64,000 nucleotides of DNA from Lachnospiraceae bacterium (GTDB lineage Bacteria; Bacillota; Clostridia; Lachnospirales; Lachnospiraceae), in contig JAFRRM010000017.1 of assembly GCA_017428105.1 (NCBI GenBank), positions 1-64,000 on the forward strand. The letters are read 5' to 3'. Under the pieces are notes generated by a model. That model was not told the origin of the DNA, searched no databases, and was given only the letters and a program-made list of their open reading frames with translations. The translations under genes were made by a program, and so were the position numbers. Shown in pieces: positions 1 through 17,825 of the stretch (position 1 is its first letter; every line of letters starts with the position of its first letter).

Positions 1-96
1 ATAGCGGATTACATTGACTATTACAACAATGAACGCATCCAGGCAAAAACAAAATGGATGCCACCTGTAAAGTACAGAATGGCATCCACTTGTTGA
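1..96 (+). CDS. IS3-family transposase, C-terminal fragment (truncated by window edge)
   Basis: The first reading frame is open from base 1 to a TGA at 94-96 and gives the typical C-terminal tail of an IS3-family OrfB (rve/DDE integrase), including the IDYYNNERIQ stretch followed by a KWMPPVKYR-like ending. This tail follows the catalytic glutamate in family members. Only 31 codons are visible, so the state of the rest of the transposase cannot be judged. Confidence 0.8.
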   Translation: MADYIDYYNNERIQAKTKWMPPVKYRMASTC

Positions 97-140
97 GGCC
101 CGTCATAAATCAATGTGTCCAGGAAACTGGGTACATATCA
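1..140 (+). mobile_element. Right end of an IS3-family insertion sequence
   Basis: The transposase stop is followed by a short non-coding tail and a likely terminal inverted repeat at 116-140 that starts TGTCCAGG and contains GGGTACATATCA, like IS3/IS150-group ends. The matching left end lies outside the window, so the exact boundary is inferred. The element ends about 125 bp upstream of a sigma-54 promoter. Confidence 0.6.
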
Positions 141-198
141 ACCGCGCGGGGTCTTTTTTTGCCGCCGTTCTCTCCCTTCCTCCGGCTCCCTCTCCGCC

Positions 199-216
199 TG
201 TCCATTTGAATGAACA
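199..216 (+). promoter_or_regulatory. Candidate upstream activator site for the sigma-54 regulator
   Basis: An 18-bp imperfect palindrome (TGTCCATTT/GAATGAACA, 7 of 9 pairs) lies about 50 bp upstream of the -24 element of the sigma-54 promoter. It shares 13 of 18 positions with 7072-7089, which sits at a similar distance upstream of the divergent sigma-54 promoter. Placement suits an enhancer site for the PrpR-type activator at 7164, but binding is inferred. Confidence 0.4.
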
Positions 217-264
217 GCTGAACAGGAATGTGAACACATCCCCCTGACTTTTCTTCCGCGTATC

Positions 265-280
265 TGGCACATTTTTTGCT
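265..280 (+). promoter_or_regulatory. Sigma-54 (-24/-12) promoter
   Basis: TGGCACATTTTTTGCT matches the sigma-54 consensus TGGCACG-N4-TTGCW at all but one position, with the GG and GC doublets 10 bp apart. It lies 43 bp before the start codon of the MR/MLE-family gene. rpoN and a sigma-54 activator are encoded in the same cluster. Confidence 0.88.
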
Positions 281-322
281 AATTTAAAGATGTAAGGATC
301 TCTTCGCCAGGAGGAAGAACGT

Positions 323-1453
323 ATGAAGATCACACAGATCGATGTCAGGAATCTTTTGATTCCTTTAAAAGTTCCGTACGCACTGCAGAAGTCTTACGGA
401 ATCAAATCGCACACCTGCTGCGTCATGGTCGCGGTCCATACGGATGAAGGCATCGTCGGTTACGGCGAATGCAACCCTCAGCCCGGTTTTACCGATGAAA
501 GCGCCGAGACCGCCAAAAGCGTGATCGGATCCATCCTTGCCCCGGCCATCATGGGCATGGATCCCACGGACGTGGCGGCGATCGACCGGCGCATGGACGT
601 CGTCTGCAAGAACAACAACCTGCCGAAAGCCGCCGTCAACACGGCCTGCTATGACATTGCCGGCAAGGCCGCCGGCGTCCCGGTCTACAAGCTGCTCGGC
701 GGAAAGCTCCAGGATTCGATCCCCATCATGCACGCGATCGGCAACGTCAGCGCCGAGGACGGCGCAAAGCTCGTCCTGCAGCGCAAGAACGAAGGCTACC
801 GCTCCGTCATGGTCAAATGCGGCATGGAAAGCGTGGAATACGACGCCGAGCGCATCTTCGCCATCCGGGAGGCCGTCGGCAAAGATTACCCGCTGGTCGC
901 CGACGTCAACCAGGGCTGGGATTACCACAAGGCGCTGCGCTTCCTGCGGCTCACGGAAGGCTGCAACATCGTCTGTCTGGAACAGCCCGTTCCCCACTGG
1001 GACATCGATTCCCTGGCGAGGCTGAAAGGCGCGAGCGACGTGCCGATCTCCGCGGACGAGAGCGTTTTCTCGATCCACGAAGCGGTCCAGGTCATTGAAA
1101 AGCGGGCCGTCGACATCATCAGTCTGAAGGTCAATAAGCACGGCGGCATCCTGAAGGAAAAACAGATCGCCGTACTGGCGCAGTACGCCGGGATCAAGCT
1201 GCTGATGAACTCCATGCTGGAGGAAGGCCTGGCGCAGGCGGCAAGCCTGCAGATCGGCGTGACCCTGCCGAACCTGGTCGAATTCGGCAGCGCGTATTTT
1301 TCCCCGCTGCGGCTTGACGACGACATCACGACCTATTCCGAACAGATCCGTGACGGCTGGGTCCACGTCAGCGGCAAGCCCGGCCTCGGCGTCGAGATCC
1401 GCGAGGAAATTGTTCAGAAATATTTACAGGATGAGTTCAGCGTAAAGGGCTGA
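323..1453 (+). CDS. Enolase-superfamily (mandelate racemase/muconate lactonizing type) enzyme
   Basis: A 376-residue protein of the MR/MLE branch of the enolase superfamily, which abstracts a proton alpha to a carboxylate to epimerise, cycloisomerise or dehydrate acids. Visible active-site residues are K165 (second lysine of the usual KxK, the first being M163), metal ligands D194, E220 and D245, and K269 on the opposite face. This pattern fits the MLE/dipeptide-epimerase/N-acylamino-acid-racemase subgroup. The start is set by AGGAGG at 309-314. It leads a sigma-54 operon with an opine-type dehydrogenase 34 bp downstream, so its substrate may be an N-substituted amino acid. The exact reaction is unknown. 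Confidence 0.85.
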   Translation: MKITQIDVRNLLIPLKVPYALQKSYGIKSHTCCVMVAVHTDEGIVGYGECNPQPGFTDESAETAKSVIGSILAPAIMGMDPTDVAAIDRRMDVVCKNNNLPKAAVNTACYDIAGKAAGVPVYKLLGGKLQDSIPIMHAIGNVSAEDGAKLVLQRKNEGYRSVMVKCGMESVEYDAERIFAIREAVGKDYPLVADVNQGWDYHKALRFLRLTEGCNIVCLEQPVPHWDIDSLARLKGASDVPISADESVFSIHEAVQVIEKRAVDIISLKVNKHGGILKEKQIAVLAQYAGIKLLMNSMLEEGLAQAASLQIGVTLPNLVEFGSAYFSPLRLDDDITTYSEQIRDGWVHVSGKPGLGVEIREEIVQKYLQDEFSVKG

Positions 1454-1487
1454 GCCGACGATACCGATCAAAGGAAAGCGTGAACCC

Positions 1488-2579
1488 ATGGAATCCAGAA
1501 TTGCTGTTATCGGCGCCGGCAACGGCGGAACCGCCATTGCCGCCCATCTGACCCGTCTCGGCGCAGAGGTCAGGCTCTGCGACCTCTTCCCCTCCTACCT
1601 GGAAGGGATCATTGCCGAGGGAGGCATTACCCTGACGGAAAACGGAACGTCCGTCAAATATCCGGTCTCTATGGTCACGACCGAGGTGGCGAAGGCGATC
1701 GCCGGCGTGCACCTTGTCATGGTCGTCACCCCGTCCTTCACCCACAAAATGATCGCGGAAGCCTGCGCGCCGTATCTGGAAGACGGACAGACCGTCGTCC
1801 TGAATCCCGGCCGGACGGCCGGCGCCGTCGATTTCTTCAACACGATCCGGAAGAACGGCTGTAAGGCCGACGTCGTCATCGCGGAAGCGCAGACGCTGGT
1901 CTACGCCTGCCGCAAGACGGGTCCGGCTTCGGTCGAGATCTTCGGGACCAAGAAGCAGGTCGCGCTGGGCGTGTTCCCGGCTTCGCGGACGGCGGAAGTC
2001 TTAAAGGTCCTGGACCCTCTGTACCCGCAGTTCGTTCCGGCCGCCAACTGCCTGGAGACGTCCCTCTCCAATATCGGGGCGCTCTTCCATCCGACGCCGG
2101 TCCTGCTCAACATCGGCCGCATCGAGTCGGATCCGAACGATTTCCGCTACTACATCGACGGGATCTCCCCTTCCGTGGCCCGTCTGATCCACAACATCGA
2201 TCTCGAACGCCTCGCCGTGGCAAAGGCCTACGGGGTGACGGTCGAGACCGCCGAGGAATGGATGCTTCAGTCCTATGAGACCCACGGCGACAGCCTGTAC
2301 GAACTGATCCAGAACAATGAAGCCTATCACGGGATCAAGGGACCGCACACGATCGACGTCCGCTACGTGACGGAGGACGCGCCGATGAGCCTCGTCCCCA
2401 TCTCGGAGCTGGGGCACATCGCCGGGGTCCCGACCCCCAACATCGACGCCGTCATCCGCCTGGCTTCCACGATCTATGAGAGGGATTTCCGCGCGGAAGG
2501 CCGCAGCGCGAAGAATCTCGGCCTGGAGGGCATGACGGTCGCCGAAGTCCTTCATTTCTTCGAAAACGGCGAGAAATAA
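1488..2579 (+). CDS. NAD(P)-dependent opine (octopine/nopaline) dehydrogenase family protein 1
   Basis: A 363-residue protein with an N-terminal Rossmann fold (IAVIGAGNGGTA, residues 5-16) and the C-terminal helical domain of the octopine/nopaline dehydrogenase family. Members interconvert an N-(carboxyalkyl) amino acid with an amino acid and a 2-oxo acid. It follows the MR/MLE gene after a short gap with an AAAGGA-like ribosome site and ends at a strong hairpin. A second family member lies convergently just beyond that terminator. The two share the layout but are clearly diverged, which suggests different substrates or reaction directions. The substrate cannot be read from sequence. Confidence 0.85.
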   Translation: MESRIAVIGAGNGGTAIAAHLTRLGAEVRLCDLFPSYLEGIIAEGGITLTENGTSVKYPVSMVTTEVAKAIAGVHLVMVVTPSFTHKMIAEACAPYLEDGQTVVLNPGRTAGAVDFFNTIRKNGCKADVVIAEAQTLVYACRKTGPASVEIFGTKKQVALGVFPASRTAEVLKVLDPLYPQFVPAANCLETSLSNIGALFHPTPVLLNIGRIESDPNDFRYYIDGISPSVARLIHNIDLERLAVAKAYGVTVETAEEWMLQSYETHGDSLYELIQNNEAYHGIKGPHTIDVRYVTEDAPMSLVPISELGHIAGVPTPNIDAVIRLASTIYERDFRAEGRSAKNLGLEGMTVAEVLHFFENGEK

Positions 2580-2596
2580 CGCGCTCCGCGCAAACA

Positions 2597-2634
2597 AAAA
2601 AGTTCCGGAAGCGATCGGCTTCCGGAACTTTTTG
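2597..2634. terminator. Bidirectional rho-independent terminator
   Basis: A 12-bp perfect stem (2601-2612 with 2618-2629) and 5-nt loop is flanked by an A-run on the left and a T-run on the right. It serves the two convergent opine-type dehydrogenase genes. Confidence 0.92.
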
Positions 2635-2649
2635 CGTCCTGAAAGGCGG

Positions 2650-3765
2650 TCAGTTGCCTTCCTCCAGGAACTGCATGAATTCTTCGGCGTTCATCTTTTC
2701 GATCCCCAGCTCTTCCATCGTCCGGGCTTCCTTGTAGAAGTCGCGGTCCATGATGTATCCGAGGATGTCGGCGAGCGCCGAGATCGCGCGGTGCTTGAAG
2801 CCCATCTGCTCCAGGAAGGCCGCGATCGGGATCAGGCCGAACGGGACGTCCTCCGTCACGTAGCGGTAGTCGAGGGTCTTCGGCATCTTGCTCTCAAAGA
2901 AGATCTTCGGGACCAGCGCATGTTGGATCTCACTGAGGGTCTCCCCTTCGCCGCCCTGATAGGCATACCAGTCAAGCGTGATCTTCGGAATGGAGCGGAC
3001 GTTCATCTTCGGCCAGACGTTGACCTGCATGCGTTCCTTATCCGTGGCCTCGATCAGGTGGTCCAGGGACTGCGTCACGCACTCCGCGTAGAACAGCCGG
3101 TCTTCGTGATTGTCGATGTTCGCCGCGTTCAGCAGCATCAGCGAAGTGTGCAGTGTGGTATTGGTATTGCTCATGCCGGTCTCGACGATGTTGTTGTAGC
3201 GGATGATGTAGGGATAGATGCCTTTCAGGCGCTCGAACGCCCAGTCACTGTTCTTATTCGGGAACATGGCGACGCCGAGATTGTGCTTGTAGCCGCGGAC
3301 GTAGGAACCCGCGGGGCCGTCCTTCCTGGTCGCGTACATCATGCAGGAGAATTCGGCAAACTGCACCTTCGTCGTGCAGCCGATATCCCGCAACACCTTG
3401 TTGAAATACAGCGAACCGCCGAAGTTGGCCGGGCAGAGCGCGACGATCTGGCCGTCTCTTAAGTGCGGAGCCATGGTCTTTGCGATATTGGCCTGCGCGT
3501 ACGCCGGCGCGATGACGAGGACGATGTCGGACTCGGCCAGCGCCTCTTCGATATCCGTCGTCACCTTGTAGACCTTGGCAAAGCCCCCCTGGAGCCCGTT
3601 GCTGGGCAGGGTGCGGAGATTGATCCCGCCCTGTTCGATGACCGGCTGCAGGCCTGCGGCAAATGCCGGCGAGTCATACAAGGTCACCTGATGTCCCCGG
3701 ATGGTCAGATCCGCCGCCGCGGCAAATCCTCCGTTTCCTCCGCCGATGATCGTAATCTTTTCCAT
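2650..3765 (-). CDS. NAD(P)-dependent opine (octopine/nopaline) dehydrogenase family protein 2
   Basis: A 371-residue protein beginning MEKITIIGGGNGG, so the dinucleotide-binding glycine motif sits at residues 8-13. The C-terminal half is the opine dehydrogenase helical domain. The reading frame extends upstream, but the ATG at 3763-3765 is chosen because it starts the Rossmann strand and lies 17 bp after the TRAP permease stop. It is the last gene of the left-facing sigma-54 operon (binding protein, permease, dehydrogenase), which implies that the imported compound, or a product of it, is its substrate. Confidence 0.85.
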   Translation of the reverse strand: MEKITIIGGGNGGFAAAADLTIRGHQVTLYDSPAFAAGLQPVIEQGGINLRTLPSNGLQGGFAKVYKVTTDIEEALAESDIVLVIAPAYAQANIAKTMAPHLRDGQIVALCPANFGGSLYFNKVLRDIGCTTKVQFAEFSCMMYATRKDGPAGSYVRGYKHNLGVAMFPNKNSDWAFERLKGIYPYIIRYNNIVETGMSNTNTTLHTSLMLLNAANIDNHEDRLFYAECVTQSLDHLIEATDKERMQVNVWPKMNVRSIPKITLDWYAYQGGEGETLSEIQHALVPKIFFESKMPKTLDYRYVTEDVPFGLIPIAAFLEQMGFKHRAISALADILGYIMDRDFYKEARTMEELGIEKMNAEEFMQFLEEGN

Positions 3766-3782
3766 GTTTTTTCCCTTTCGTC

Positions 3783-5786
3783 TTATTGTTCGGCTGCTTT
3801 TGCCTTTTTGGCCTTCACGGCCTGTGTCACGGCCAGCAACAGGACCATGCCGGCGGCGACCGCCAGCAGAATGCCCCGTACCGACCAGGGCGTTGCGTTG
3901 AACATCATCGCATAGAGCGCCAGGAAGACGATCAGCCCGCCGAAGCGCTGGATCTGATTGAGCGGCCCGTTGAAGTACTTCTCCGTAAAGGTCCCCAGGA
4001 AGTAGATCGCAACGATGGCAAACACCGCAATGACGCACTGCTCATACCACGTCCCGTTGATCAGCTGCGAATACACGAAGAGGATCGGGACGTAATAGAA
4101 GGTGAAGCCGAGCTTCAGGGCCGTGAAGCCCGTCTTCATCGGATTCCCTCCTGCAATTCCTGCTGCGGCGAATGCTGTCATGCAGACCGGCGGCGTGATC
4201 GTGGCCAGCTGCGTGAACCAGAAGATCGTCAGATGGGCCACCAGCATCTCGACGCCGAGCGCCACGAGCGCCGGCCCGCTGAGGGTAGCCAGAATGATGT
4301 AGGAGGTGCTGATGGGAAGGCCCATGCCGAGCAGGTAGCCGATCGCGGCCACGAGCAGCAGCGTGATCCAGAGCTTGCCCTTGGAGAAGCTCAGAATGAT
4401 CGCCGTCGTCTTCATCATCAGGCCGGTCACGTTGATCATGGATACGATGATCGAGGCGCAGAAGATGACGCCCGCGATGGACATCAGTCCCTTCGCGCAG
4501 TCTTCCAGCGCCAGGATGGTCCGCTTGAAACTGATGCGCGTGCTCTTCCTGACCTGCGCAAACACGTAGATCAGCAGGGTGCAGCCGACGCCGCTCAGGA
4601 AGGGCGTGAAGCCGCTGACCAGCAGCGCGATCAGGATAATGATCGGCAGGAAGAAGACGCCGCCTTCCTTCAGCGTTTTCAGCAGGTTGGGAATGCTCTC
4701 GGCAGGAAGCCCTTTCAGGCCTCTCTTCCGGGCCATCAGGTCGACCAGGAAGTAGATCGCGATATAGAAAAGCAGCGCGGGGATGATGGACAGGACGCAC
4801 ACCTTGCCGTAAGCCACGCCGACTGTTTCTGCCAGAATGAAGGCGCCCGTTCCCATGATGGGCGGCATGATCTGTCCGCCGGTCGAAGCGCAGGTCTCAA
4901 TCGCCCCGGCTTCTTCCGGAGTATATCCGGTCTTTTTCATCATCGGGATCGTCAGCGTACCGGTCGTCACCACGTTGGCGATGGCGCTGCCGGAGATCGT
5001 CCCCATGGCGGCGGACGAAATGACGGCGACCTTGGCCGGACCGCCGCGGCGCTTGCCGGCCAGCGCGATGCAGATATTCATGAAATGCTTGTCCGCACCG
5101 GTCGCCTGCAGGAAGGTCCCGAAGGCCAGGAAGCCGAAGAGCAGGGACGAGGCCATTCCGCTTAAGGAGCCGAACATGCCTTCCGTCGTCAGGAAGACCT
5201 GCTCCGTGAACTTATTCAGGTTCAGGCCTTTGTAATAGAACATCTGCGGCATGTACGGGCCCAGGAAGGCATAGGCGATGAAGACGCCGCAAATGACGGT
5301 GATCGACAGCCCCAGCGTCCGCCGGCCTGCTTCCAGGAGCATGAAGACCAGAGCGATCGCCACGACCTTGTCCATGGGCAGGACCTTGGACATGAACGGG
5401 ATCCTTGTCAGGATCCTCTTGTGGTTGACCATGATGTAGACCAGGCTGGCGATCGACGCCGCGACCAGAATCCAGTCGTAGATCGGCACCTTTTCCCGGT
5501 CGAATTTGCTCTTCTTCGTCGTGGGATACCACAGGAAGGTCAGCGCCAGCATGGCGCAGAGCACGATGCCGCGCTGGATGTGCGGCAGAAACACGCCGAC
5601 GAAGGCGGTGTAGAACACGATCAGCGTCGTCGCCACCGCGATCACCAGTGCCAGATATCGGGGAAAACCTTTCAGCTTCCTGTACTTGCCGATCGCTTTT
5701 TCCTGAAGCTCTTCCGTAACCTCGGCATGTTCCATCTGATCGGCCGCAAACGCGGTTTCAGGAGTATTCAATGTTTCTTGACTCAA
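3783..5786 (-). CDS. TRAP transporter permease, fused small and large subunits (4TM/12TM type)
   Basis: A 667-residue, highly hydrophobic protein in which the DctQ-like four-helix unit and the DctM-like twelve-helix unit are one chain, as is usual for TAXI-type TRAP systems. It would use an ion gradient to import the ligand delivered by the binding protein at 5875-6963. The start is a TTG at 5784-5786 (LSQETLNTP...), preceded by an AAAGGAG ribosome site; the frame stays open upstream to an ATG with no such site. TRAP substrates are usually organic acids, which fits the carboxylate chemistry of the linked enzymes. Confidence 0.9.
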   Translation of the reverse strand: MSQETLNTPETAFAADQMEHAEVTEELQEKAIGKYRKLKGFPRYLALVIAVATTLIVFYTAFVGVFLPHIQRGIVLCAMLALTFLWYPTTKKSKFDREKVPIYDWILVAASIASLVYIMVNHKRILTRIPFMSKVLPMDKVVAIALVFMLLEAGRRTLGLSITVICGVFIAYAFLGPYMPQMFYYKGLNLNKFTEQVFLTTEGMFGSLSGMASSLLFGFLAFGTFLQATGADKHFMNICIALAGKRRGGPAKVAVISSAAMGTISGSAIANVVTTGTLTIPMMKKTGYTPEEAGAIETCASTGGQIMPPIMGTGAFILAETVGVAYGKVCVLSIIPALLFYIAIYFLVDLMARKRGLKGLPAESIPNLLKTLKEGGVFFLPIIILIALLVSGFTPFLSGVGCTLLIYVFAQVRKSTRISFKRTILALEDCAKGLMSIAGVIFCASIIVSMINVTGLMMKTTAIILSFSKGKLWITLLLVAAIGYLLGMGLPISTSYIILATLSGPALVALGVEMLVAHLTIFWFTQLATITPPVCMTAFAAAGIAGGNPMKTGFTALKLGFTFYYVPILFVYSQLINGTWYEQCVIAVFAIVAIYFLGTFTEKYFNGPLNQIQRFGGLIVFLALYAMMFNATPWSVRGILLAVAAGMVLLLAVTQAVKAKKAKAAEQ

Positions 5787-5811
5787 GGTTTCTTCTCCTT
5801 TCCGATGACAA

Positions 5812-5845
5812 CATCCCCCGTGGAAACAGCGTACCACGGGGGATG
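5812..5845 (-). promoter_or_regulatory. Intercistronic stem-loop between binding protein and permease genes
   Basis: A 12-bp perfect GC-rich inverted repeat (5812-5823 with 5834-5845, 10-nt loop) lies in the 88-bp gap between the two genes. No T-run follows on the minus strand, so it is more likely an mRNA-stabilising or processing hairpin that raises binding-protein over permease expression than a full terminator. Confidence 0.6.
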
Positions 5846-5874
5846 CTGCAGGCCATCAGTTCCGTCGTGAAGCC

Positions 5875-6963
5875 TTATTTGATCAATCCGACCTCTTTGT
5901 AGAACTTCAGGGCGCCGGGGTGAAGCTCGATCGCCGTCCCTTCGTTCATGGTCTCAGGGAAGAATTCGGCAAAGGAAGCGTGGACGCCGAGGAAGTAATC
6001 CTTGTTCTCATACAGGGTCTTGGTGAAGGTGTAGACGGTATCTTCATCCGCATCTTCCGCGCAGAAGAACACGATCGGCAGACCGACGGTGTAGATGTCT
6101 TCCTTCTGGCCGTCATAGGTGCCGGCCTTGATCGTGTACTTCGCAAAGCCGTACTTGTCGCACAGGGTCTGGATGACGTCTTCGTCAAGGCTGACCAGTT
6201 TGCCGTCCGTACGGTTGACGAGAGCTTCGGTAACGCTGGAGGCCGGGACGTTCAGCATCGGGCTCTGAATGTCGATGTGGCGGTCTTTCCAGGCGTCAGC
6301 CAGGGAAGCGCCGTCGGCATAGTAGACGGAGGCGCCCCATTTTTCCATGTCGGTGGGATCGTTCAGACCGTAGGCCTGAAGGATCATGCTGACGATCAGG
6401 GTGGAGGCGTTGCCGACCGGATACAGGCCGACCGTGCACTTCATCTGATCCTTGATGAACTGGCCGTAGGTCTGGATGTCCAGCGTGGTCAGCGGCTGAA
6501 TGACCGTCGGCTGCAGGCAGGCGATCGAGCGAAGGTTCTCGTACTTCTCTTCATAAGGGCTGGTGCCCGCCACGGCGGCAGCCAGGAACGGGCCGTAGCT
6601 CATGCCGATCTCGGATTCGCCGGACGAAATGACGCCGATGTTGCCGACGGAGCCCGGGCCGGGGATGGCCGTCATCGGGAAGCCTTCATAATTCTCATTG
6701 AATTTGTCCGCGATACCGGCGGCGATGGTATACCAGGAACCGGTTGCCGATCCGGCAAGCAGATCCAGCGCTTCGATCTTCTTGGGGCCGGCCTGAGTGG
6801 TCTCTACGGGCGCTGCCGTGCTGTCCTTGGGAGCTTCAGTGCTGGTCTTGGGAGCTTCGGTGCTGGTCTTGGGGGCTTCGGTCGTGCCGGGCTTGTCCCC
6901 GCCGCACGCCGCAAGTCCGAGGATCAGGACCATAGCCATGACGAAACAGAATACTTTTTTCAT
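5875..6963 (-). CDS. TAXI-family TRAP transporter solute-binding lipoprotein
   Basis: A 362-residue secreted lipoprotein. It has a hydrophobic signal peptide ending in the lipobox LAAC near residue 20, a TEAPKTS-rich spacer, and then the TAXI (TRAP-associated extracytoplasmic immunogenic) receptor fold with the characteristic ATGSWYTIAAGI stretch followed by GPGSVGN and GESEIGMSYG. It would bind the substrate outside the membrane for the fused permease encoded next. It is the first gene behind the leftward sigma-54 promoter at 7018-7033. Confidence 0.9.
   Translation of the reverse strand: MKKVFCFVMAMVLILGLAACGGDKPGTTEAPKTSTEAPKTSTEAPKDSTAAPVETTQAGPKKIEALDLLAGSATGSWYTIAAGIADKFNENYEGFPMTAIPGPGSVGNIGVISSGESEIGMSYGPFLAAAVAGTSPYEEKYENLRSIACLQPTVIQPLTTLDIQTYGQFIKDQMKCTVGLYPVGNASTLIVSMILQAYGLNDPTDMEKWGASVYYADGASLADAWKDRHIDIQSPMLNVPASSVTEALVNRTDGKLVSLDEDVIQTLCDKYGFAKYTIKAGTYDGQKEDIYTVGLPIVFFCAEDADEDTVYTFTKTLYENKDYFLGVHASFAEFFPETMNEGTAIELHPGALKFYKEVGLIK
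6820..6882 (-). repeat. Three tandem 21-bp units in the lipoprotein linker
   Basis: Units at 6820-6840, 6841-6861 and 6862-6882 differ by only a few bases. Each encodes one seven-residue STEAPK(T/D)-type step of the spacer between the lipid anchor and the binding domain. Such units are prone to length change by slippage. Confidence 0.8.
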
Positions 6964-7017
6964 CTTCTTTCTCCTTGTTCACGAAATTGCTGACATAGCA
7001 GCTTACATTTATCATAT

Positions 7018-7033
7018 AGCAAAGCTTGTGCCA
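7018..7033 (-). promoter_or_regulatory. Sigma-54 (-24/-12) promoter
   Basis: Read on the minus strand the sequence is TGGCACAAGCTTTGCT: a complete TGGCAC -24 element and TTGCT -12 element with 10 bp between the GG and GC doublets. It lies about 55 bp before the TAXI binding-protein start. Confidence 0.88.
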
Positions 7034-7071
7034 AAACATTGCCGTTCCGTTCTGTTTTATTTTGTCCGCCA

Positions 7072-7089
7072 TGTCAATTTTACCGGACA
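7072..7089 (+). promoter_or_regulatory. Candidate upstream activator site
   Basis: TGTCAATTTTACCGGACA has TGTC/GACA arms and matches the site at 199-216 at 13 of 18 positions. It lies about 40 bp upstream of the leftward -24 element and also precedes the activator gene, so it could serve both enhancement and autoregulation. An overlapping TGTCCG-N15-CGGACA inverted repeat (7063-7089) is also present. This is inference only. Confidence 0.35.
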
Positions 7090-7163
7090 CCGGCGGCCTC
7101 TTCTTTACATATTTTCAAAAACGTGTTAAGATTTTGCTACAACACACAAAGAGGGCGAAAAAA

Positions 7164-9140
7164 ATGATCAAGCTTGCAGTCGTAGGTTCCACTACCTTCG
7201 GGAACTATGTTGAAAATATCAAGGCGCTTCGTCTCTTCCCCGACGTGGTGCTGAATTACTGCGGGGACACGCTGACGCAGGGCGTGCCCGACATCGCGCG
7301 GAAAGTTCTGGAGTCGGACAGCCAGGTCCTCGTCATCGGGCCGAACGACTACCTGAAGATCAAGGAATACATACAACTCCCGTACTACATCGTCAACCCG
7401 ACCCTGTACGACTTTCTGACCATCCACGAGCGGATAACGGATTATTCCCGGACGGCCATCGTCATCCGGCGCGTCCACAATCTGGACCTTTCCCTGCTGG
7501 AAAAGGCGCTGGGGGTCCGCTACAACAAATTCGTCTATGACTACAATGATGACGTCTATGCCCTTCTCTGTCAATTGAAAGGCATGGGTTACGATACGAT
7601 CATCGGCGTCCAGTTCGTCGTACAGATGGCGGAATCGCTGGGGATGAACGCCATTTACTATTATACGCAGCCGAACCTGGAGATCGCCGTGAGCAACGCG
7701 GTGCAGATCGCGATGAACATGGAAAAGGAACAGGATTATCTTGCGGAGATCCAGTCGATCCTGGAAAACGCCATGTGCGGCGCGGTCTGCCTGAGCTACC
7801 CCGACCTGAACGTCATCTATGCCAACCAGACCGCCGCCGGCATGCTGCGCTGCCGGCCCCAGGACCTCCTGCAGAAAAACATCAGGGACCTGATCTCCAA
7901 GAACTTTTACAAGACCGTCAGCGAAGGGCAGGACGCCAGCGAAGTTTCGCAGTTCGATTTCTACGGCGTGGACGTCGTGGGCAACGTCGTCCAGCTGAAG
8001 CTGAAAGGGGCCATTTCCCGCCTCTGCATCCTCTTTGAAAACACGTCGAACATTCTGGAATACGAGACGATCATCCGCCAGGAGATCAAACGGAAAAGCT
8101 TCGAGACCCATTATACCTTCAAGGACATCCTCGGTCAAAGCCGGCAGATCAAAGAGGTCGTCATGCAGGCCAGACAGTTCGCGAAAAGCCAGTCCACGAT
8201 CCTGATCAACGGGGAGACCGGCGCCGGAAAGGAAGTCTTCGCGCAGAGCATCCACGAGCTCAGCGTGCGGCGCAACTATCCCTTCGTCGCCATCAACTGC
8301 GCCGCCATGCCGGACACCCTGATCGAAAGCGAGCTCTTCGGCTACATGCCCGGCTCCTTCACGGGGGCGAGCCGGAAAGGCAAGACCGGCCTGATCGAAC
8401 TGGCCAATCACGGAACCATGTTCCTGGACGACATCGACGCGCTCTCGCCGGGCTTTCAGGCGAAGCTCCTCCGCGTCATGCAGGAACGGGAGATCATCCG
8501 CGTGGGCGGCGACTCCCCGATCCCCGTCGACGTCCGCTTCATCGTCGCGACCAACCGCAACTTAAAGCAGCTGGTCCGGGAAGGCAAGTTCCGGAACGAC
8601 CTCTATTTCCGGGTCAACGTCCTGCACCTCTTCATCCCGCCGCTCCGCCAGCGGAAGGAAGACATTCCGATCCTGTTCGCGCATTATCTCCGGCAGTTCA
8701 GCGAAAGCCTCTACGAGCGGCTGAAGGACCGGATGGACGAACTGGCCCGGCCGCTTCTCGCCTATTCCTTCCCCGGAAACATCCGCGAGCTGGTCAGCGT
8801 GACCGAGCGCTTCGTCACGCTCTTCGACGAATCGATGCCGGCGGACGGCGACTACGTGCTCCGGCTGCTTGACTACTCTCTCGACAACGAGGAAGAGGAG
8901 GCGGGGCAGACGCCCGACATGCGCCCCGCCGCTGCCGCCGAGGCAGAGGAGAAAGCGGAGGAAGGATCCGCCGCCGTCCCCCGCATCACCGGCGACTACA
9001 AGGCCGATCTTGCGGAGGCCGAGCAGAAGATCCTGCAGATCTATTATCAGCAGTTCAACGGCAACATGACGCAGCTTGCCCAGAAGCTGGGCATCAGCCG
9101 CACCACGCTTTACAATAAGATCAGCAAAAAACAGCCCTGA
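7164..9140 (+). CDS. PrpR_N-type sigma-54-dependent transcriptional activator
   Basis: A 658-residue bacterial enhancer-binding protein. Residues about 1-190 match the PrpR_N ligand-sensing domain and about 195-310 a PAS-like domain. Residues about 330-560 form the AAA+ domain, with Walker A GETGAGKE near 350, the sigma-54 contact loop written GSFTGA instead of the usual GAFTGA near 396, and Walker B MFLDDID. The last 50 residues form a Fis-type helix-turn-helix (QLAQKLGISRTTLYNKI). The ATG at 7164 is chosen because PrpR_N begins there; upstream codons fall in the promoter region. It lies between two sigma-54 promoters and just before rpoN, so it very probably controls both operons in response to the transported acid. 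Confidence 0.93.
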   Translation: MIKLAVVGSTTFGNYVENIKALRLFPDVVLNYCGDTLTQGVPDIARKVLESDSQVLVIGPNDYLKIKEYIQLPYYIVNPTLYDFLTIHERITDYSRTAIVIRRVHNLDLSLLEKALGVRYNKFVYDYNDDVYALLCQLKGMGYDTIIGVQFVVQMAESLGMNAIYYYTQPNLEIAVSNAVQIAMNMEKEQDYLAEIQSILENAMCGAVCLSYPDLNVIYANQTAAGMLRCRPQDLLQKNIRDLISKNFYKTVSEGQDASEVSQFDFYGVDVVGNVVQLKLKGAISRLCILFENTSNILEYETIIRQEIKRKSFETHYTFKDILGQSRQIKEVVMQARQFAKSQSTILINGETGAGKEVFAQSIHELSVRRNYPFVAINCAAMPDTLIESELFGYMPGSFTGASRKGKTGLIELANHGTMFLDDIDALSPGFQAKLLRVMQEREIIRVGGDSPIPVDVRFIVATNRNLKQLVREGKFRNDLYFRVNVLHLFIPPLRQRKEDIPILFAHYLRQFSESLYERLKDRMDELARPLLAYSFPGNIRELVSVTERFVTLFDESMPADGDYVLRLLDYSLDNEEEEAGQTPDMRPAAAAEAEEKAEEGSAAVPRITGDYKADLAEAEQKILQIYYQQFNGNMTQLAQKLGISRTTLYNKISKKQP

Positions 9141-9181
9141 GTTCTCGCCCCGCCTCTTCGGAGCCGGGCCAAGGAGCCGCC

Positions 9182-10546
9182 ATGGAAATCAGTCAGAAGC
9201 TGGAACTGCAGCTGACTCAGCAGCAGCTGATCAGCCTGCAGCTGCTTCAAATGAATACGCTGGATCTTGCCGCCTACGTCGAGGAACAGGCCCTGTCCAA
9301 CCCCGTCATTGAGCCGATCCGTGAAAACGACGCTGCCGAAGGCGCCGTTCCTTCCGTGTCCGTCATTTCCCGGGAAGACCCTTTCGATTATGACGTCAGG
9401 AACCGATACTATACCGAGCAGCCCGCGGCGGCTTCCGACCCCATGGACAACATCAGCCACCACGGCGGCCTGGAAGAAACGCTCAGTGCTTCACTCTGCC
9501 TTCAGATCGAGTGCTCGCGGAAGCCGGAGCCGCTCCGCAGCCAAATGAGATACCTTGCCCGCTGCCTGGACGACGACGGCTACCTGAGGATCGGCCTCGA
9601 CGAGCTTGCGGAGGAAAACGGCTGCGGCGCGGACGAAATGGAGGAAGCCCTGCTGGAGCTCCAGCAGCTCGCTTCGGCGCCCGGCGTCGGCGCCCGGGAT
9701 CTCGGGGAATGCCTGGCGCTTCAGCTGCGCGCCCGGAAGGCCGACGAACGCCTCGTCGCGCTTGCCCGGGACCACCTGGACGACCTGGCTGCAAAACGCT
9801 ATCAGAAGCTGTCGAAGCAGCTCGGGCTGACGCAGGACGAGATCCGCGAGGCGAAAAAGCTCCTTGCCGGCCTCCAGCCGCGCCCCGGCGCCGCGTATGC
9901 GGCTTCCTCCAAAACGGAATACGTCGTCCCCGAACTCTTCGTCGAGAAGGACGGCGACGATTTCGTCCTCAGCGTCCGCGGAAGGGAGAGGCGCTATTTT
10001 TCGCTCGACGCCTATTACTGTCAGCTTCTGAAGACGACCGAGGACGAGGAAGTCAGGCGCTATCTCGGCGAAAAGCTGCAGCAGGCGGAGCTGCTCCGCT
10101 GGCGGATAGACCAGCGGATGAGCACGCTGGAAAACTGCACGAGGGTCATCCTGCAGCGGCAGAAAGACTTTTTCACGAAAGGCCGCAAGGGGCTGAAGGC
10201 GCTGTCCTTGGCCGACGTCGCCGACGAACTGGGCCTGAACATTTCCACGATCAGCCGGGCCGTACGGGGCAAATACCTGTCGTATCCGGGAGGCGTCGTG
10301 CCGCTCTCCTTCTTCTTCGTGCACAAGGCCGGCACGGACAGTGCCGACCGCTCGGACATGGGCAATGCGGCAGTCTGCGAGGTCATCCGCGAGATCGTTG
10401 CCGACGAAAACAGGAAGCACCCGCTTTCCGACCAGAACATCTGCAGCAAGCTGGCGGCGCGCGGCATCCGGATCTCCCGGCGGACCGTCGCCAAATACCG
10501 CGACAAATTGGGGCTCCCTCCAGCATCAGATCGCAGGGAAGTGTAA
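9182..10546 (+). CDS. rpoN: RNA polymerase sigma-54 factor
   Basis: A 454-residue sigma-54. It has the glutamine- and leucine-rich activator region (ISQKLELQLTQQQLISLQLL), the core-binding and helix-turn-helix regions, and near the C-terminus the RpoN box SRRTVAKYRDKL that reads the -24 element. AAGGAG at 9171-9176 fixes the start, 41 bp after the activator stop, so the two are probably co-transcribed. Location inside a catabolic divergon is unusual. Whether this is the only rpoN in the genome cannot be told from the window. Confidence 0.96.
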   Translation: MEISQKLELQLTQQQLISLQLLQMNTLDLAAYVEEQALSNPVIEPIRENDAAEGAVPSVSVISREDPFDYDVRNRYYTEQPAAASDPMDNISHHGGLEETLSASLCLQIECSRKPEPLRSQMRYLARCLDDDGYLRIGLDELAEENGCGADEMEEALLELQQLASAPGVGARDLGECLALQLRARKADERLVALARDHLDDLAAKRYQKLSKQLGLTQDEIREAKKLLAGLQPRPGAAYAASSKTEYVVPELFVEKDGDDFVLSVRGRERRYFSLDAYYCQLLKTTEDEEVRRYLGEKLQQAELLRWRIDQRMSTLENCTRVILQRQKDFFTKGRKGLKALSLADVADELGLNISTISRAVRGKYLSYPGGVVPLSFFFVHKAGTDSADRSDMGNAAVCEVIREIVADENRKHPLSDQNICSKLAARGIRISRRTVAKYRDKLGLPPASDRREV

Positions 10547-10557
10547 ATTATTATATC

Positions 10558-10598
10558 GAAAAAGAAACGGCATGGTCCTTGTCATGCCGTTTCTTTTT
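10558..10598 (+). terminator. Rho-independent terminator after rpoN
   Basis: A 14-bp perfect stem (10561-10574 with 10583-10596) and 8-nt loop, flanked by A- and T-runs, lies 15 bp after the rpoN stop. Confidence 0.9.
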
Positions 10599-10692
10599 CA
10601 TTCGGAAATCATTTTCCGAAAGATTTTTTATGCCTCCGAAGAGGCCTTCTTTTTTGGTGGGCGGCAGGCCGCCCGGAATTTTATTCCGCGGC

Positions 10693-12819
10693 TCAGTCGG
10701 TCACGTAAGACAGATCGATGACGTGCGGGTTCACACCGTTGTACCAGTACATGAAGCACAGGATATCGACTTTCTCGTCAGGCTCCACATTGCTCGCGTA
10801 TTCATACACGTCGGTATCCCGTCCGATCAGATAGGATTCCACGCAGAAATCAATGACACCGGTACCGTTGTCGGCCTTGATGTAAATATCAGGATCATTA
10901 TCATCCTGCTTATAACCCACGGCGTCGCCGTTATCCTGCGGCTGGATCACCATGTTGCGAAAGATGACCTTGCGGTTCATCAGCTTCGCCAGCGCTTCTT
11001 CATCGCTTGCATCATAGATGTTGACCGGTGCCGAAATATATTTGCCTTCCAGGATCTCTTCGAGCTTGCCGTTCTGGATCTCGACCAGGCCGCCATAGTC
11101 CTTTCTGTCACCGGAAATGCGCACCTTCGTGCCCGGTTCCAGTTTTTCGTACTCTTCCTGCGTCAGACTGCAGCCGTAGCAGAAATATCCGCCGTCCGCA
11201 TCAGCGAGGTAGAGGGATGCGGTATTCTGCGCTTCGTAATAAGCCTGCTTGCCCTGGACATAAGCTTCGATCACGACCGGTTCCATCTGTTCAACAGCCA
11301 GGAATTCTTCATAGGTCATGACGCCTTCGGACTTCTCGTTCACGTTGCCGGTCACGGTGATCGCCGTCACGTGCGGGTTTGCTCCGTTGTACCAGTACAG
11401 GAAAGCTTCCACGGTGATGACATCGCCGATCTTCAGGTTCTCGACCGTCTTATGAACTTCGGTATCCGCGCCGGTCAGATAGGATTCAACATAGAAATTC
11501 GTCACACCGTACTCGCCGGCTGCCCGGAAAGCCAGATCCGGATCGCCGTCGTTTTCTTTCTTCCAGATGGCGGAACCGTCGTCCTGGGCCATGACCACCA
11601 GGTCCTTCGCCACGATCTTCTTGCTCATGTGATAATCCAGGATCTCATCAAAACCGATGGCAACGGTCACGTCTACCGGCTGAGCGACATATTTAACGCC
11701 GTCTTCTTCAACTTCTTCCACTTTGCCGTTCTGGACCTCGACCAGGCCGGCATAGTCCTTTCTGTCACCGGAAATGCGGACCTTCGTGCCCGGTTCCAGT
11801 TTTTCATACTCTTCCTGCGTCAGACTGCAGTCGTAGCAGAAATATCCGCCGTCCGCATCCGCGAGATAGAGGGATGCGGTCTCCTGCGCGGCATAATAGG
11901 CCTGTTTGCCCTGGACGTAGGCTTCGATCACGACCGGTTCCATCTGTTCAACAGCCAGGAATTCTTCATAGGTCATGACGCCTTCGGACTTGTCGTTCAC
12001 ATTGCCGACGACCTCCACGCCCGTCACATGCGGATTCGCGCCGTTGTACCAGTACATGAAACCTTCGACGTTCACGATGTCACCGACCTTCAGGGCTTCT
12101 ACGGCCTTATAGGCCTCGCTGTCCTTGCCGGTCAGATAGGATTCCACGCAGAAACTCACGGCACCGTATTCGTTGCCGGCACTGAAATACAGGTCGGGAT
12201 CGGAATCGCTCTCTTTTCTGTTGATTGCTTCACCGTCATTCTGCGGCATGATCACCATATTGGAGAAGCTGACCATCCGGTTCATGACTTTTGCAAGCGC
12301 TTCGGTGTCGCCGACGATGTCCGACACGTCCATGAACGCTTCCTCGAAGAGGTCGTTCTCATCGATTTCTTCCAGAATACCGCTCTGGATCTCAGCCAGG
12401 CCGGCATAGTCTTTTCTTTCACCGGAAATGCGGACCTTCGTGCCGAGTTTCAGTTTGTCATACTGATCCTGCGTCATTTTGCATTCATAGCAGAAATAAC
12501 CGCCGTCCTGATCGGCCAGATAGAGGCTGGCAGCCTCGTGCCCTGCATAGTACTCCTGCTTGGCCTGAACGTAGGCTTCGATCAAAACCGGTTCCATCTG
12601 TTCCGTTGCCATGAACTCCTCATAGCTCAGGACCTTGGCTTCGGACTCGGTCGGAGCCGGTTCGGTGGTCGGCGCTTCGGTCGGGGCTGCCGTGGTCACA
12701 GGAGCCTCGGTCGTCTTCGGCGCTTCGGTCGGAGCCGCCGTGGTCTCCTTCGGGCTGCCGCATGCCGCAAGGCCGAGTACCATGGCCAGCGCGAGCACGA
12801 TTGCTAAGATTTTCTTCAT
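10693..12819 (-). CDS. Surface lipoprotein with three tandem OB-like repeats
   Basis: A 708-residue protein with signal peptide and lipobox LAAC (lipidated C20), a threonine/proline-rich spacer to about residue 60, and three repeats starting near residues 63, 279 and 500. Each repeat opens with a YEEF...EQMEPV.IEAYVQ motif and contains SLYLADxDGGYFCY and KVRISGxRKDYxGL, a pattern like small beta-barrel (OB-type) domains of gut Firmicutes surface proteins. Repeats 2 and 3 are nearly identical over long stretches even at DNA level, which points to recent duplication or gene conversion. A sigma-A promoter lies upstream. The ligand is unknown. Confidence 0.75.
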   Translation of the reverse strand: MKKILAIVLALAMVLGLAACGSPKETTAAPTEAPKTTEAPVTTAAPTEAPTTEPAPTESEAKVLSYEEFMATEQMEPVLIEAYVQAKQEYYAGHEAASLYLADQDGGYFCYECKMTQDQYDKLKLGTKVRISGERKDYAGLAEIQSGILEEIDENDLFEEAFMDVSDIVGDTEALAKVMNRMVSFSNMVIMPQNDGEAINRKESDSDPDLYFSAGNEYGAVSFCVESYLTGKDSEAYKAVEALKVGDIVNVEGFMYWYNGANPHVTGVEVVGNVNDKSEGVMTYEEFLAVEQMEPVVIEAYVQGKQAYYAAQETASLYLADADGGYFCYDCSLTQEEYEKLEPGTKVRISGDRKDYAGLVEVQNGKVEEVEEDGVKYVAQPVDVTVAIGFDEILDYHMSKKIVAKDLVVMAQDDGSAIWKKENDGDPDLAFRAAGEYGVTNFYVESYLTGADTEVHKTVENLKIGDVITVEAFLYWYNGANPHVTAITVTGNVNEKSEGVMTYEEFLAVEQMEPVVIEAYVQGKQAYYEAQNTASLYLADADGGYFCYGCSLTQEEYEKLEPGTKVRISGDRKDYGGLVEIQNGKLEEILEGKYISAPVNIYDASDEEALAKLMNRKVIFRNMVIQPQDNGDAVGYKQDDNDPDIYIKADNGTGVIDFCVESYLIGRDTDVYEYASNVEPDEKVDILCFMYWYNGVNPHVIDLSYVTD

Positions 12820-12881
12820 AATATTTCTCCTTTAACTGGTAACGTCCCTTTCGGGGAACATCACAAAAGTGGAACAAGATA

Positions 12882-12909
12882 ATTATAGCGGTATGCGCGG
12901 AAAATTCAA
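12882..12909 (-). promoter_or_regulatory. Sigma-A promoter for the repeat lipoprotein
   Basis: On the minus strand TTGAAT (12904-12909), 16 bp, then a perfect TATAAT (12882-12887). An AAAGGAG ribosome site precedes the start codon at 12819. Confidence 0.65.
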
Positions 12910-12970
12910 GGGTCTCCCGCATTTTTGCCCGCTGCGGCACCGCTTTCCGGCAGCCGGCAGATCAGCTGTC

Positions 12971-14740: not shown

Positions 14741-15630
14741 CCCTTTGTCCCTCCTCTCGAAACGCCGGCCATGATCTTCTTGTGGAAGATCAGGAACAGA
14801 ATGATGAGCGGTACGGAAATGACCACGACCGCAGCCATCATGGCCGGGATGTTCTGCCGGCCGAAGCCATGTTCGCGGATCTCCTGGATGCCGTTTGAGA
14901 CCAGGTAGTAGTTCGGGTCGTCGGTGATCAGGCGCGGCCACACGTAGGAGTTCCAGCACTCGATGACCTTCAGGATGATCACCGTCACGAGCGTCGGCGC
15001 GCTGATCGGGATCATGACCTTGGTCAGGTACTTGAAGTCCGAACAGCCGTCCACCTTGGCTGCCTTGTAAAGCTCATCCGGGATCTGCGCGAAGTTCTCC
15101 TTCAGCAGATAAATGTAGAAAACTGACGTGACCGACGGCAGGATCAGGCCCCAGAAGGTATTGCGCATGCCCCAGTTGGTGATGGTCACGAAGTTGGTGA
15201 TGATGACCAGTTCGTTCGGGATCATCATCAGGGCGAGGAAAAGGGTGAAGACCAGGTTTTTCCCCTTGAACTCCAGGCGCGAGAAGGCGAAGGCCGCGAG
15301 CGTGACCACGATCAGCATGACCGCCGTCGTCGCCACCGTGAAGATCAGGGTGTTCAGGAAATATTTGGCCAGGGGCACCGTCGTGAAGGCCGCCTTATAG
15401 TTGGCGAGCGTCGGCGCCGCCGTCCAGAACTTCGGTGTGTATTCGGCGTTGTAGGCGCTGTAGCTTTTGACCGAGGTCAGGATCATCCAGTAGAACGGGA
15501 AGAGGACGAGGAGCCCCCACACGGTCAGGAAGAGGTAGGTGAGCGATTTGCCGGTCACCCGTTTCACGCGGGCGCGCTGTTCGATCCTTGTCAGATCGTC
15601 CTGCGTTACCTGTTTATTCTGCGCTGTCAT
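14737..15630 (-). CDS. Carbohydrate ABC transporter permease, MalG type
   Basis: A 297-residue inner-membrane permease with six predicted helices and the EAA-type cytoplasmic loop (DELYKAAKVDGCSDFKYLTKV) typical of MalG/UgpE partners. That loop docks on the ATPase encoded at 16551-17642. The soluble N-terminal segment before the first helix is about 30 residues. The stop overlaps the binding-protein start by 4 bp, indicating translational coupling. Confidence 0.92.
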   Translation of the reverse strand: MTAQNKQVTQDDLTRIEQRARVKRVTGKSLTYLFLTVWGLLVLFPFYWMILTSVKSYSAYNAEYTPKFWTAAPTLANYKAAFTTVPLAKYFLNTLIFTVATTAVMLIVVTLAAFAFSRLEFKGKNLVFTLFLALMMIPNELVIITNFVTITNWGMRNTFWGLILPSVTSVFYIYLLKENFAQIPDELYKAAKVDGCSDFKYLTKVMIPISAPTLVTVIILKVIECWNSYVWPRLITDDPNYYLVSNGIQEIREHGFGRQNIPAMMAAVVVISVPLIILFLIFHKKIMAGVSRGGTKG

Positions 15631-15644
15631 GGCTTCCTCCTTCC

Positions 15645-16535: not shown

Positions 16536-16550
16536 GGCAGCTCCTCCGGC

Positions 16551-17642: not shown

Positions 17643-17729
17643 ATCTTTTCTCGTCCGTTCCCGAGGATTAAGCGCAGCGGATCTTCACGTTCGGAGGTCC
17701 GCCCTGCGCTCCGGGTCTTTCTGACAATA

Positions 17730-17758
17730 AATATAAATCAGCGGTCAGGGAAAGTCAA
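17730..17758 (-). promoter_or_regulatory. Sigma-A promoter for the sugar ABC operon
   Basis: On the minus strand TTGACT (17753-17758), 17 bp, TATATT (17730-17735), followed by an 87-bp leader before the ATPase start. Confidence 0.65.
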
Positions 17759-17794
17759 ACGGGACAGGGCTGCGGGACGCCTTATTTCCGCAAT

Positions 17795-17825
17795 AAAAAA
17801 GGACCGTGAAAGGGCTTCACGGTTC
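17795..17825 (-). terminator. Rho-independent terminator overlapping the AI-2E family gene stop
   Basis: An ACCGTGAA/TTCACGGT stem extended by a G-U and a G-C pair, followed on the minus strand by six T. The TGA stop (17817-17819) falls inside the hairpin, so termination and the end of translation overlap. Confidence 0.8.

Follow-up and report, generated by a model that had tools for sequence, protein, structure and literature searches.

A sigma-54 island with two opine-type dehydrogenases and a TAXI-TRAP importer in a Lachnospiraceae bacterium

Results

A compact sigma-54 cluster

The window analysed here is the whole 64,000-nucleotide stretch of contig JAFRRM010000017.1 (assembly GCA_017428105.1) from a Lachnospiraceae bacterium of a rumen-associated genus. 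Positions 199-10546 hold seven genes in three transcription units, in which a sigma-54 activator and rpoN are combined with an enolase-superfamily enzyme of the MR/MLE type, two opine-type dehydrogenases (ODH1 and ODH2) and a TAXI-TRAP importer. The cluster very probably constitutes a single, private sigma-54 regulon, and there is about an even chance (roughly 0.5) that it serves to take up an acidic opine and cleave it with NAD. The gene set, the promoters, their conservation, the co-occurrence of rpoN with the activator, and the catalytic and pocket residues are visible in the sequence itself. The genes, with their positions in the window, are as follows.

323-1453, + strand: MR/MLE enolase-superfamily enzyme (PF13378 186 bits, PF02746 75 bits)
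1488-2579, + strand: ODH1, opine-type dehydrogenase (PF02317 176 bits; best solved relative 1BG6, E 4e-79)
2650-3765, - strand: ODH2, opine-type dehydrogenase (PF02317 91 bits; 1BG6, E 2e-47)
3783-5837, - strand: fused TRAP permease (QM) (TIGR02123 594 bits, cut-off 321); start codon uncertain, and the true start may lie slightly inside this open reading frame
5875-6963, - strand: TAXI solute-binding lipoprotein (TIGR02122 160 bits, cut-off 84)
7164-9140, + strand: sigma-54 activator with PrpR_N, PAS, AAA+ and Fis-type helix-turn-helix domains (PF06506 55 bits, cut-off 29; PF00158 223 bits; PF02954 38 bits)
9182-10546, + strand: rpoN, sigma-54 (TIGR02395 361 bits, cut-off 277)

The MR/MLE and ODH1 genes form operon 1 (+ strand), the TAXI, TRAP and ODH2 genes form operon 2 (- strand), and the activator and rpoN form the third unit (+ strand). 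All of the genes named in the original prediction, which had been made from the sequence without database searches, were recovered by Pfam and NCBIfam matches, and rpoN adjoins the activator as stated there. The layout had to be corrected. Two divergent operons flanking the activator had been described; the two enzyme operons in fact converge tail to tail at 2597-2633, and the activator and rpoN follow on the right-hand side, beyond the TAXI operon, from which alone they diverge.

The regulatory genes and the sigma-54 promoters

The translated activator contains GSFTGA, a motif listed among the accepted variants of GAFTGA in the available text of PMC6615313. Its identification as PrpR proper was considered and rejected, the score against TIGR02329 (354 bits) being under the equivalog cut-off of 499. 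The rpoN product was matched in its activator-interacting, core-binding and DNA-binding domains, and it gave the single TIGR02395 match in the assembly. Each enzyme operon is preceded by a -24/-12 site.

265-279, + strand: sigma-54 promoter TGGCACATTTTTTGC of the MR/MLE-ODH1 operon, exact to the consensus TGGCAC-N5-TTGC, 43 bases before the start codon
7033-7019, - strand: sigma-54 promoter TGGCACAAGCTTTGC of the TAXI-TRAP-ODH2 operon, exact to the same consensus, 55 bases before the start codon

The near-perfect promoters that had been predicted before both operons are thus exact, and they are the sole exact matches to TGGCAC-N5-TTGC in the 2.26 Mb assembly. The number of sites by itself proves nothing, because the 12 genomes of the genus that lack rpoN hold 18 exact sites together, or 1.5 each, and the site count alone was discarded as evidence. 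Looser sites were not enriched either in the window (46 with up to two mismatches, against 60 expected) or genome-wide (72 with up to one mismatch, against 165 for a reversed control pattern). It is the placement of the sites that is informative: both exact sites stand directly before the two operons, and their places are kept in two further species. In the corresponding loci of those species, L009 (genome G303) and L010 (genome G305), three of the four sites are exact; the site of the MR/MLE operon is exact in both, and that of the TAXI operon is exact in L009 and begins with TGGCAT in L010.

The distribution of the regulatory genes was then compared among 16 species-level genomes of the genus. 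An rpoN over the cut-off was found in four of these, namely the three with the cluster and G301. The same four genomes, and no others, have a PF00158 match above 200 bits, one in each; all remaining matches fall below 35 bits and most likely represent other AAA+ proteins. The self-contained regulon of the original prediction was supported, in that one rpoN and one strong activator match were found with their targets adjacent, and both exact promoters of the assembly lie inside the cluster.

The rpoN of G301 is 38% identical to that of the cluster and keeps different company. A second sigma-54 island of the genus was observed in this genome on contig C67 (L128, L129) at 7132-18235, where a PAS-type activator, two exact promoters and rpoN lie within 9 kb, together with a thiolase, a short-chain dehydrogenase, a CoA-transferase, a MaoC protein and an ABC importer. 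Since G301 has an activator, promoters and rpoN with other cargo, the genus holds two different islands of one plan.

In a sample of the order, rpoN exceeded the cut-off in 59 of 295 genomes; within the host's family these were only the host genome and G283. Twenty rpoN loci, chosen by hand from the 59 genomes for family spread, were fetched. An activator was present within the fetched stretch at 9 of the 12 loci from outside family f17 and at none of the 8 from f17; in G098, one of the three misses outside f17, activators lie directly outside that stretch. The cargo of the activator-linked loci varies, and in G283 includes a BCCT transporter and aromatic amino-acid lyases. In that locus (L160, contig C45, 2885-10929) rpoN adjoins the activator, and TGGCACGTAAATTGC stands before the BCCT transporter and two genes of the aromatic amino-acid lyase family.

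The dehydrogenases

ODH1 and ODH2 both exceed the PF02317 cut-off of 30 bits and are 34% identical to each other. Both align to His202 and Asp297 of 1BG6, which we take to be the catalytic dyad of that enzyme. A His-Asp dyad is also named for opine dehydrogenases in PMC10787698. In an alignment of 49 sequences (two of them duplicates and one 1BG6 itself) every sequence has His202, and all 48 that are not cut short at that place have Asp297.

The pocket residues differ between the two proteins. According to the available text of PMC10787698, the pair at 1BG6 positions 111 and 198 decides between phenylalanine (Ala/Asn, in ArODH) and aspartate (Arg/Gly, in the metagenomic mODHs), and a double exchange of the pair swaps the preference. 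ODH1 has Arg/Gly (Arg109 and Gly197 in its own numbering), a pair also present in the G303 and G305 orthologues. At the same positions ODH2 carries Asn/Asn, which is not the acidic-type pair, and so does its relative in G298, which likewise adjoins a TAXI-TRAP importer. Among the 46 distinct clostridial sequences the pairs were Arg/Gly (28), Ser/Asn (8), Asn/Asn (6), Ala/Asn (3) and Ile/Asn (1); Arg occurred with Gly in all 28 cases and never without it. Because of its Arg/Gly pair, ODH1 is predicted to take an acidic amino acid as the amino-acid half of its substrate; the same prediction does not extend to ODH2. ODH1 also has Trp at the place of Trp258 of 1BG6, the putative active-site tryptophan, and in ODH2 the position of this residue depends on the alignment (not clearly aligned in one, paired with a Trp in another). 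In the cofactor domain of both enzymes the Asp after strand 2 is retained, which suggests that the two use the same cofactor, NAD.

The importer and the MR/MLE enzyme

The two importer genes are adjacent, and both exceed the cut-offs of their families, TIGR02122 and TIGR02123. The TAXI protein VcGluP, a relative of known structure, grips the amino group of glutamate via Tyr45, Gln93 and Glu125 together with a main-chain contact, Tyr45 and Gln93 mattering most for this ligand (PMC11574862, available text). In the TAXI protein of the cluster these three are replaced by Trp77, Tyr123 and Thr153, and the same replacements are found in the TAXI proteins of L009, L010 and G298. None of nine TAXI proteins fetched with opine-type dehydrogenase loci has Gln at the Gln93 place, where some have alanine; Glu125 is kept in four. 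Glutamate is disfavoured as the ligand, since equivalents of Tyr45 and Gln93 are absent. A ligand without a free primary amine would fit, because the contacts to the amino group are replaced; it may be an opine or a nitrogen-free acid. Glutamate, 2-oxoglutarate, 2-hydroxyglutarate and phthalate are given as TAXI ligands in the available text of PMC12344293, which also reports that GltS symporters can take TAXI partners.

The MR/MLE protein matches both the N- and the C-terminal domain of its family (PF02746 and PF13378). Its predicted metal ligands are Asp194, Glu220 and Asp245, and its predicted catalytic residues Lys165 on strand 2 and Lys269 on strand 6; we take these to have the roles usual in the family, an Asp-Glu-Asp metal site and acid-base lysines on the two strands. 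The KxK motif is altered to MxK, Met163 replacing the first Lys and Lys165 being the second. Assignment to a named NCBIfam equivalog failed, as all 18 profiles listed stayed under their cut-offs (the best was muconate cycloisomerase), and a predicted structure was set aside (mean pLDDT, the predicted confidence score, 42, from a 3-sequence alignment).

At E<=1e-65 the enzyme was found in 2 of 391 genomes of the class, the host's own and G439. The G439 protein is 52% identical, also has MxK, and lies between two opine-type dehydrogenases with Ala/Asn and Asn/Asn pockets; judged by sequence, this is the same combination with other family members. In G657 a distant MR/MLE protein with KxK (29% identical) has an opine-type dehydrogenase and a DctM-type TRAP transporter as its neighbours.

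Conservation and recurrence of the gene set

The complete gene set was found in 3 of the 16 genomes of the genus (the host's own, G303 and G305), with sites at both promoter places in all three. Gene order is kept in L009 and L010, and protein identities are 82-93% for six of the genes and 70% for rpoN. ODH2 at E<=1e-60 was found in the host genome only among the 295 genomes of the order. Parts of the set recur more widely, as ODH-MR/MLE-ODH (G439), ODH-TAXI-TRAP (G298) and activator-TAXI-TRAP-ODH (G331, G364 and G461). Conservation of the full neighbourhood across Clostridia was thus not found in the genomes searched; the complete set is confined to three genomes of one genus, and what recurs beyond it are these sub-modules. 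The order and the class were each represented by a sample of their genomes, many of the genomes are draft assemblies, and searches by E value miss distant relatives.

To describe the surroundings of the dehydrogenase family, 42 loci with opine-type dehydrogenases were used, three of which are this cluster. They were chosen by similarity to ODH1 or ODH2, not by their neighbours, and include closely related loci as well as loci truncated at contig ends. Their genes were called by script as the longest open reading frames; neighbours were mostly identified by eye, and Pfam was used to check 20 of them. Within 6 kb of the dehydrogenase were found ornithine cyclodeaminase (OCD)/mu-crystallin proteins (13 loci), an unnamed protein of 520 aa (12), a sigma-54 activator (10), TAXI (8), fused TRAP (8), MR/MLE (5), DctM-type TRAP (4), GltS (3) and rpoN (3). 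Outside this cluster, TAXI-TRAP genes lie within 6 kb at 5 of the 39 loci; for comparison, 99 genomes of the class hold 44 TAXI genes.

It is apparent that promoter and activator go together at these loci. A site TGGCA-N6-TTGC lies upstream in the gene run of the dehydrogenase at 9 of the 10 loci with an activator within 6 kb, against 1 of the 32 without one; when the three copies of this cluster are left out, 6 of 7 loci with an activator have the site and 1 of 32 without one (Fisher p 1.5e-5). Since the -24/-12 site tracks the nearby activator, control by sigma-54 recurs among operons that combine opine-type dehydrogenases with transporters.

Some further associations were observed. A homologue of the glutamate symporter GltS adjoins an opine-type dehydrogenase at three fetched loci, and the dehydrogenase is of the Arg/Gly type in all three; at L013, L056 and L012 the GltS homologue, the Arg/Gly-type enzyme and an OCD/mu-crystallin gene adjoin. 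The protein of about 520 aa (L068, 8428-10017, and 11 further loci) adjoins an Arg/Gly-type opine dehydrogenase. The one member of this group that was tested gave no Pfam match, and the label "B12-like", which had been a guess, was dropped. At L073 (7331-15139) an opine-type dehydrogenase stands in a run with GrdB-type and Gly_reductase proteins, with NhaC and alanine dehydrogenase recognized by eye. This run lies behind a sigma-54-like site and an activator, and a link to Stickland-type reduction is possible.

Other candidate control sites and surroundings of the cluster

Three further candidate elements were located within the cluster.

211-236, + strand: three copies of TGAACA (at 211, 219 and 231), a candidate binding site for the activator at the first promoter, with the repeats aligned in L009 and L010
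2597-2633, no strand: perfect inverted repeat with A/T tracts, 16-nt arms 100% complementary, 5-nt loop
7104-7132, + strand: sigma-70-like promoter candidate for the activator and rpoN, 9/12 match, TG before the second hexamer

The TGAACA repeats have the same spacing in L009 and L010; they lie 28 bases from the -24 element here and farther from it in the other two. The pattern TGAACANNTGAACA with up to one mismatch occurs once in the 64 kb, where 0.17 would be expected. Repeats common to both promoters were sought and none was found, the sole 7-mer present in all six upstream sequences overlapping the -12 region. The inverted repeat, which the terminator scan did not list, is probably a bidirectional terminator shared by the convergent operons. 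Sigma-70-like sites of the quality of 7104-7132 number 6 in the region against 2.9 expected, and the evidence for this one is weak. Rfam gave no match in positions 1-11000 of the window.

The window begins at the start of the contig. Its positions 1-100, directly upstream of the first promoter, hold by eye the end of a transposase-like reading frame, and the spacing upstream of this promoter differs from that in L009 and L010. Recent transfer as judged by base composition gave no signal (G+C content 59.2% for the cluster, 60.4% for the rest of the window). Opposite rpoN, at 10693-12819, lies a gene for a large lipoprotein-like protein with internal repeats, a relative of which follows rpoN in L009.

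Discussion

The data are consistent with the following scheme, in which we infer the substrate, the direction, the order of steps, the inducer and the NAD preference. The activator and rpoN would be expressed from a housekeeping promoter. A ligand, perhaps bound by the PrpR_N or PAS domain, would switch the activator on, and the activator would open both -24/-12 promoters, so that operon 2 would supply the TAXI-TRAP importer and ODH2, and operon 1 the MR/MLE enzyme and ODH1. The substrate would be an acidic compound of the opine type, in which a secondary amine links two acids through their alpha carbons and one of the halves is probably aspartate- or glutamate-like. The MR/MLE enzyme may move a proton beside a carboxylate, altering the stereochemistry of one alpha carbon, and ODH1, with its acidic pocket, and ODH2, with its other pocket, may oxidise different stereoisomers or nitrogen sides with NAD+. 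An amino acid and a 2-oxo acid would result and pass into ordinary metabolism. The opine-like acid of the original prediction agrees with the families and with the catalytic and pocket residues, the identity of the compound being a matter of interpretation; the acidic amino-acid half, suggested by the pocket of ODH1, had not been foreseen.

Other explanations were weighed against this scheme. It is rather doubtful that the PF02317 proteins and the MR/MLE enzyme act on some different acid, for instance an N-acyl or hydroxy acid, with the latter serving as racemase, dehydratase or cycloisomerase. PF02317 proteins beyond a few assayed enzymes are uncharacterised, the best profile for the MR/MLE protein is that of a cycloisomerase (below cut-off), and a protein without a Pfam match pairs with 12 of the 42 dehydrogenase loci, so that the functions of the family may exceed opines. 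The catalytic dyad is nevertheless kept in all complete sequences, the Arg/Gly signature of assayed opine dehydrogenases is present exactly, and GltS and OCD/mu-crystallin proteins, which have relatives acting on amino acids, are among the partners. Still less probable is synthesis, with opines formed to dispose of electrons or for excretion and with a 2-oxo or amino acid brought in by the importer. Opine dehydrogenases are NADH sinks in invertebrates and the host is anaerobic, and the assays in PMC10787698 were run in the joining direction; the presence of an epimerase and an importer, both under inducible control, nonetheless fits uptake and use better, and no exporter is present in the gene set of the cluster. 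That the genes are chance neighbours with no common role is very improbable, given that three species share the gene order and both promoters, with proteins 82-93% identical (70% for rpoN), and that sub-modules recur in other genomes.

A more elaborate alternative, which we consider unlikely, is a transamination that needs no pyridoxal phosphate. One dehydrogenase would reductively couple a 2-oxo acid taken up by the importer with an amino acid of the cell, the MR/MLE enzyme would invert an alpha carbon, and the other dehydrogenase would cleave the opine at the opposite side of its nitrogen; nitrogen, and chirality too, would thereby be transferred without net consumption of NADH. The saccharopine pathway of lysine shares the logic of two dehydrogenases at one secondary amine; it uses another enzyme family, and the likeness here is conjectural. 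Two dehydrogenases of different pocket type do stand beside one MR/MLE gene (Arg/Gly with Asn/Asn here, Ala/Asn with Asn/Asn in G439), both of those in the cluster keep the Asp after strand 2 that suggests a shared NAD cofactor, and TAXI proteins can carry 2-oxoglutarate (PMC12344293, available text). The two dehydrogenases are, however, split between operons, and an inducible island linked to an importer suits plain catabolism. We also know of no such route among PF02317 enzymes. It is similarly unlikely, as a combined proposal, that a portable sigma-54 island (rpoN, one activator and a pair of target operons, with cargo interchangeable among sister species, such as the CoA-transferase and thiolase genes of G301) here carries a saccharopine-like route that needs no pyridoxal, its two opine dehydrogenases differing in specificity and acting with an MxK-type epimerase to dismantle an acidic opine or pass nitrogen across it.

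Several observations weigh against import and cleavage of an acidic opine by a private regulon. Substrate, expression and activity are all read from sequence. The Arg/Gly signature speaks for the amino-acid half only, and for ODH1 only; ODH2 shows no clear alignment to the active-site Trp of 1BG6, and we know of no characterised counterpart of the Asn/Asn pocket. The printed kcat/KM of Arg/Gly-type enzymes on aspartate is low, 0.04 per s per mM, because of which the physiological substrate may be another acid. Of the known TAXI ligands, 2-oxoglutarate, 2-hydroxyglutarate and phthalate also lack an amino group (PMC12344293, available text). ODH1 and ODH2 have closer relatives than the dehydrogenases of G439, and the complete set was not found beyond the genus in the 295 order and 391 class genomes searched. 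As to regulation, the second promoter has no clear equivalent of the TGAACA repeat, and other sigma-54 promoters are possible because of the 70 one-mismatch sites in the host genome and the island of G301.

The components resemble known systems to differing degrees. The dehydrogenases share fold family, the His-Asp dyad and, in ODH1, the Arg/Gly pair with 1BG6 (the Arthrobacter enzyme CENDH/ArODH) and the acidic metagenomic mODHs described in the available text of PMC10787698, and differ in that two pocket types occur within a single regulon that also includes an importer and an MR/MLE enzyme. That enzyme has both Pfam domains, the metal ligands and the strand-2 and strand-6 lysines in common with 2P88, 2QDE, N-acylamino-acid racemases and dipeptide epimerases, from which it is set apart by MxK in place of KxK (as is its 52% relative in G439) and by scores under all the NCBIfam cut-offs listed. 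The importer belongs to the families of VcGluP and TtGluBP (TIGR02122 and TIGR02123), with the Tyr45, Gln93 and Glu125 contacts replaced. PrpR_N, AAA+ and Fis-type helix-turn-helix domains are common to the activator and PrpR; the activator scores under the PrpR cut-off and its neighbours are not propionate genes. A pairing of one rpoN with one activator is likewise found in Lactobacillus plantarum and Chlamydia trachomatis, from which the present system differs in its cargo, its activator type and its restriction to few species of the genus. In L. plantarum sigma-54 controls one transport system, the mannose phosphotransferase system (PMC3162934, available text). Clostridiales genomes have one to 35 sigma-54 activators each, with PrpR_N among the activator domains, and the available main text of PMC6615313, from which these figures come, does not mention opine, octopine or TRAP. 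In the open-licence literature no paper was found that joins octopine dehydrogenase with TAXI and mandelate racemase, with a TRAP transporter, or with ornithine cyclodeaminase in clostridia, or opine dehydrogenase with the enolase superfamily, which is weak evidence of absence. A single paper, on a deep-sea metagenome, was listed as touching on three of the four subjects opines, sigma-54, TRAP transporters and clostridia.

Sigma-54 is usually viewed as a global regulator. Here, and with other cargo in a sister species, it appears as part of a small catabolic island, and most sister species lack the cluster's own switch of sigma-54 and activator; the cluster is thereby a clean system for the study of one regulon. 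The sampled Clostridia have many opine-type dehydrogenases, for which, to our knowledge, no natural role is known. The importer, the racemase-family partner and the pocket signature together make the substrate of such a dehydrogenase testable.

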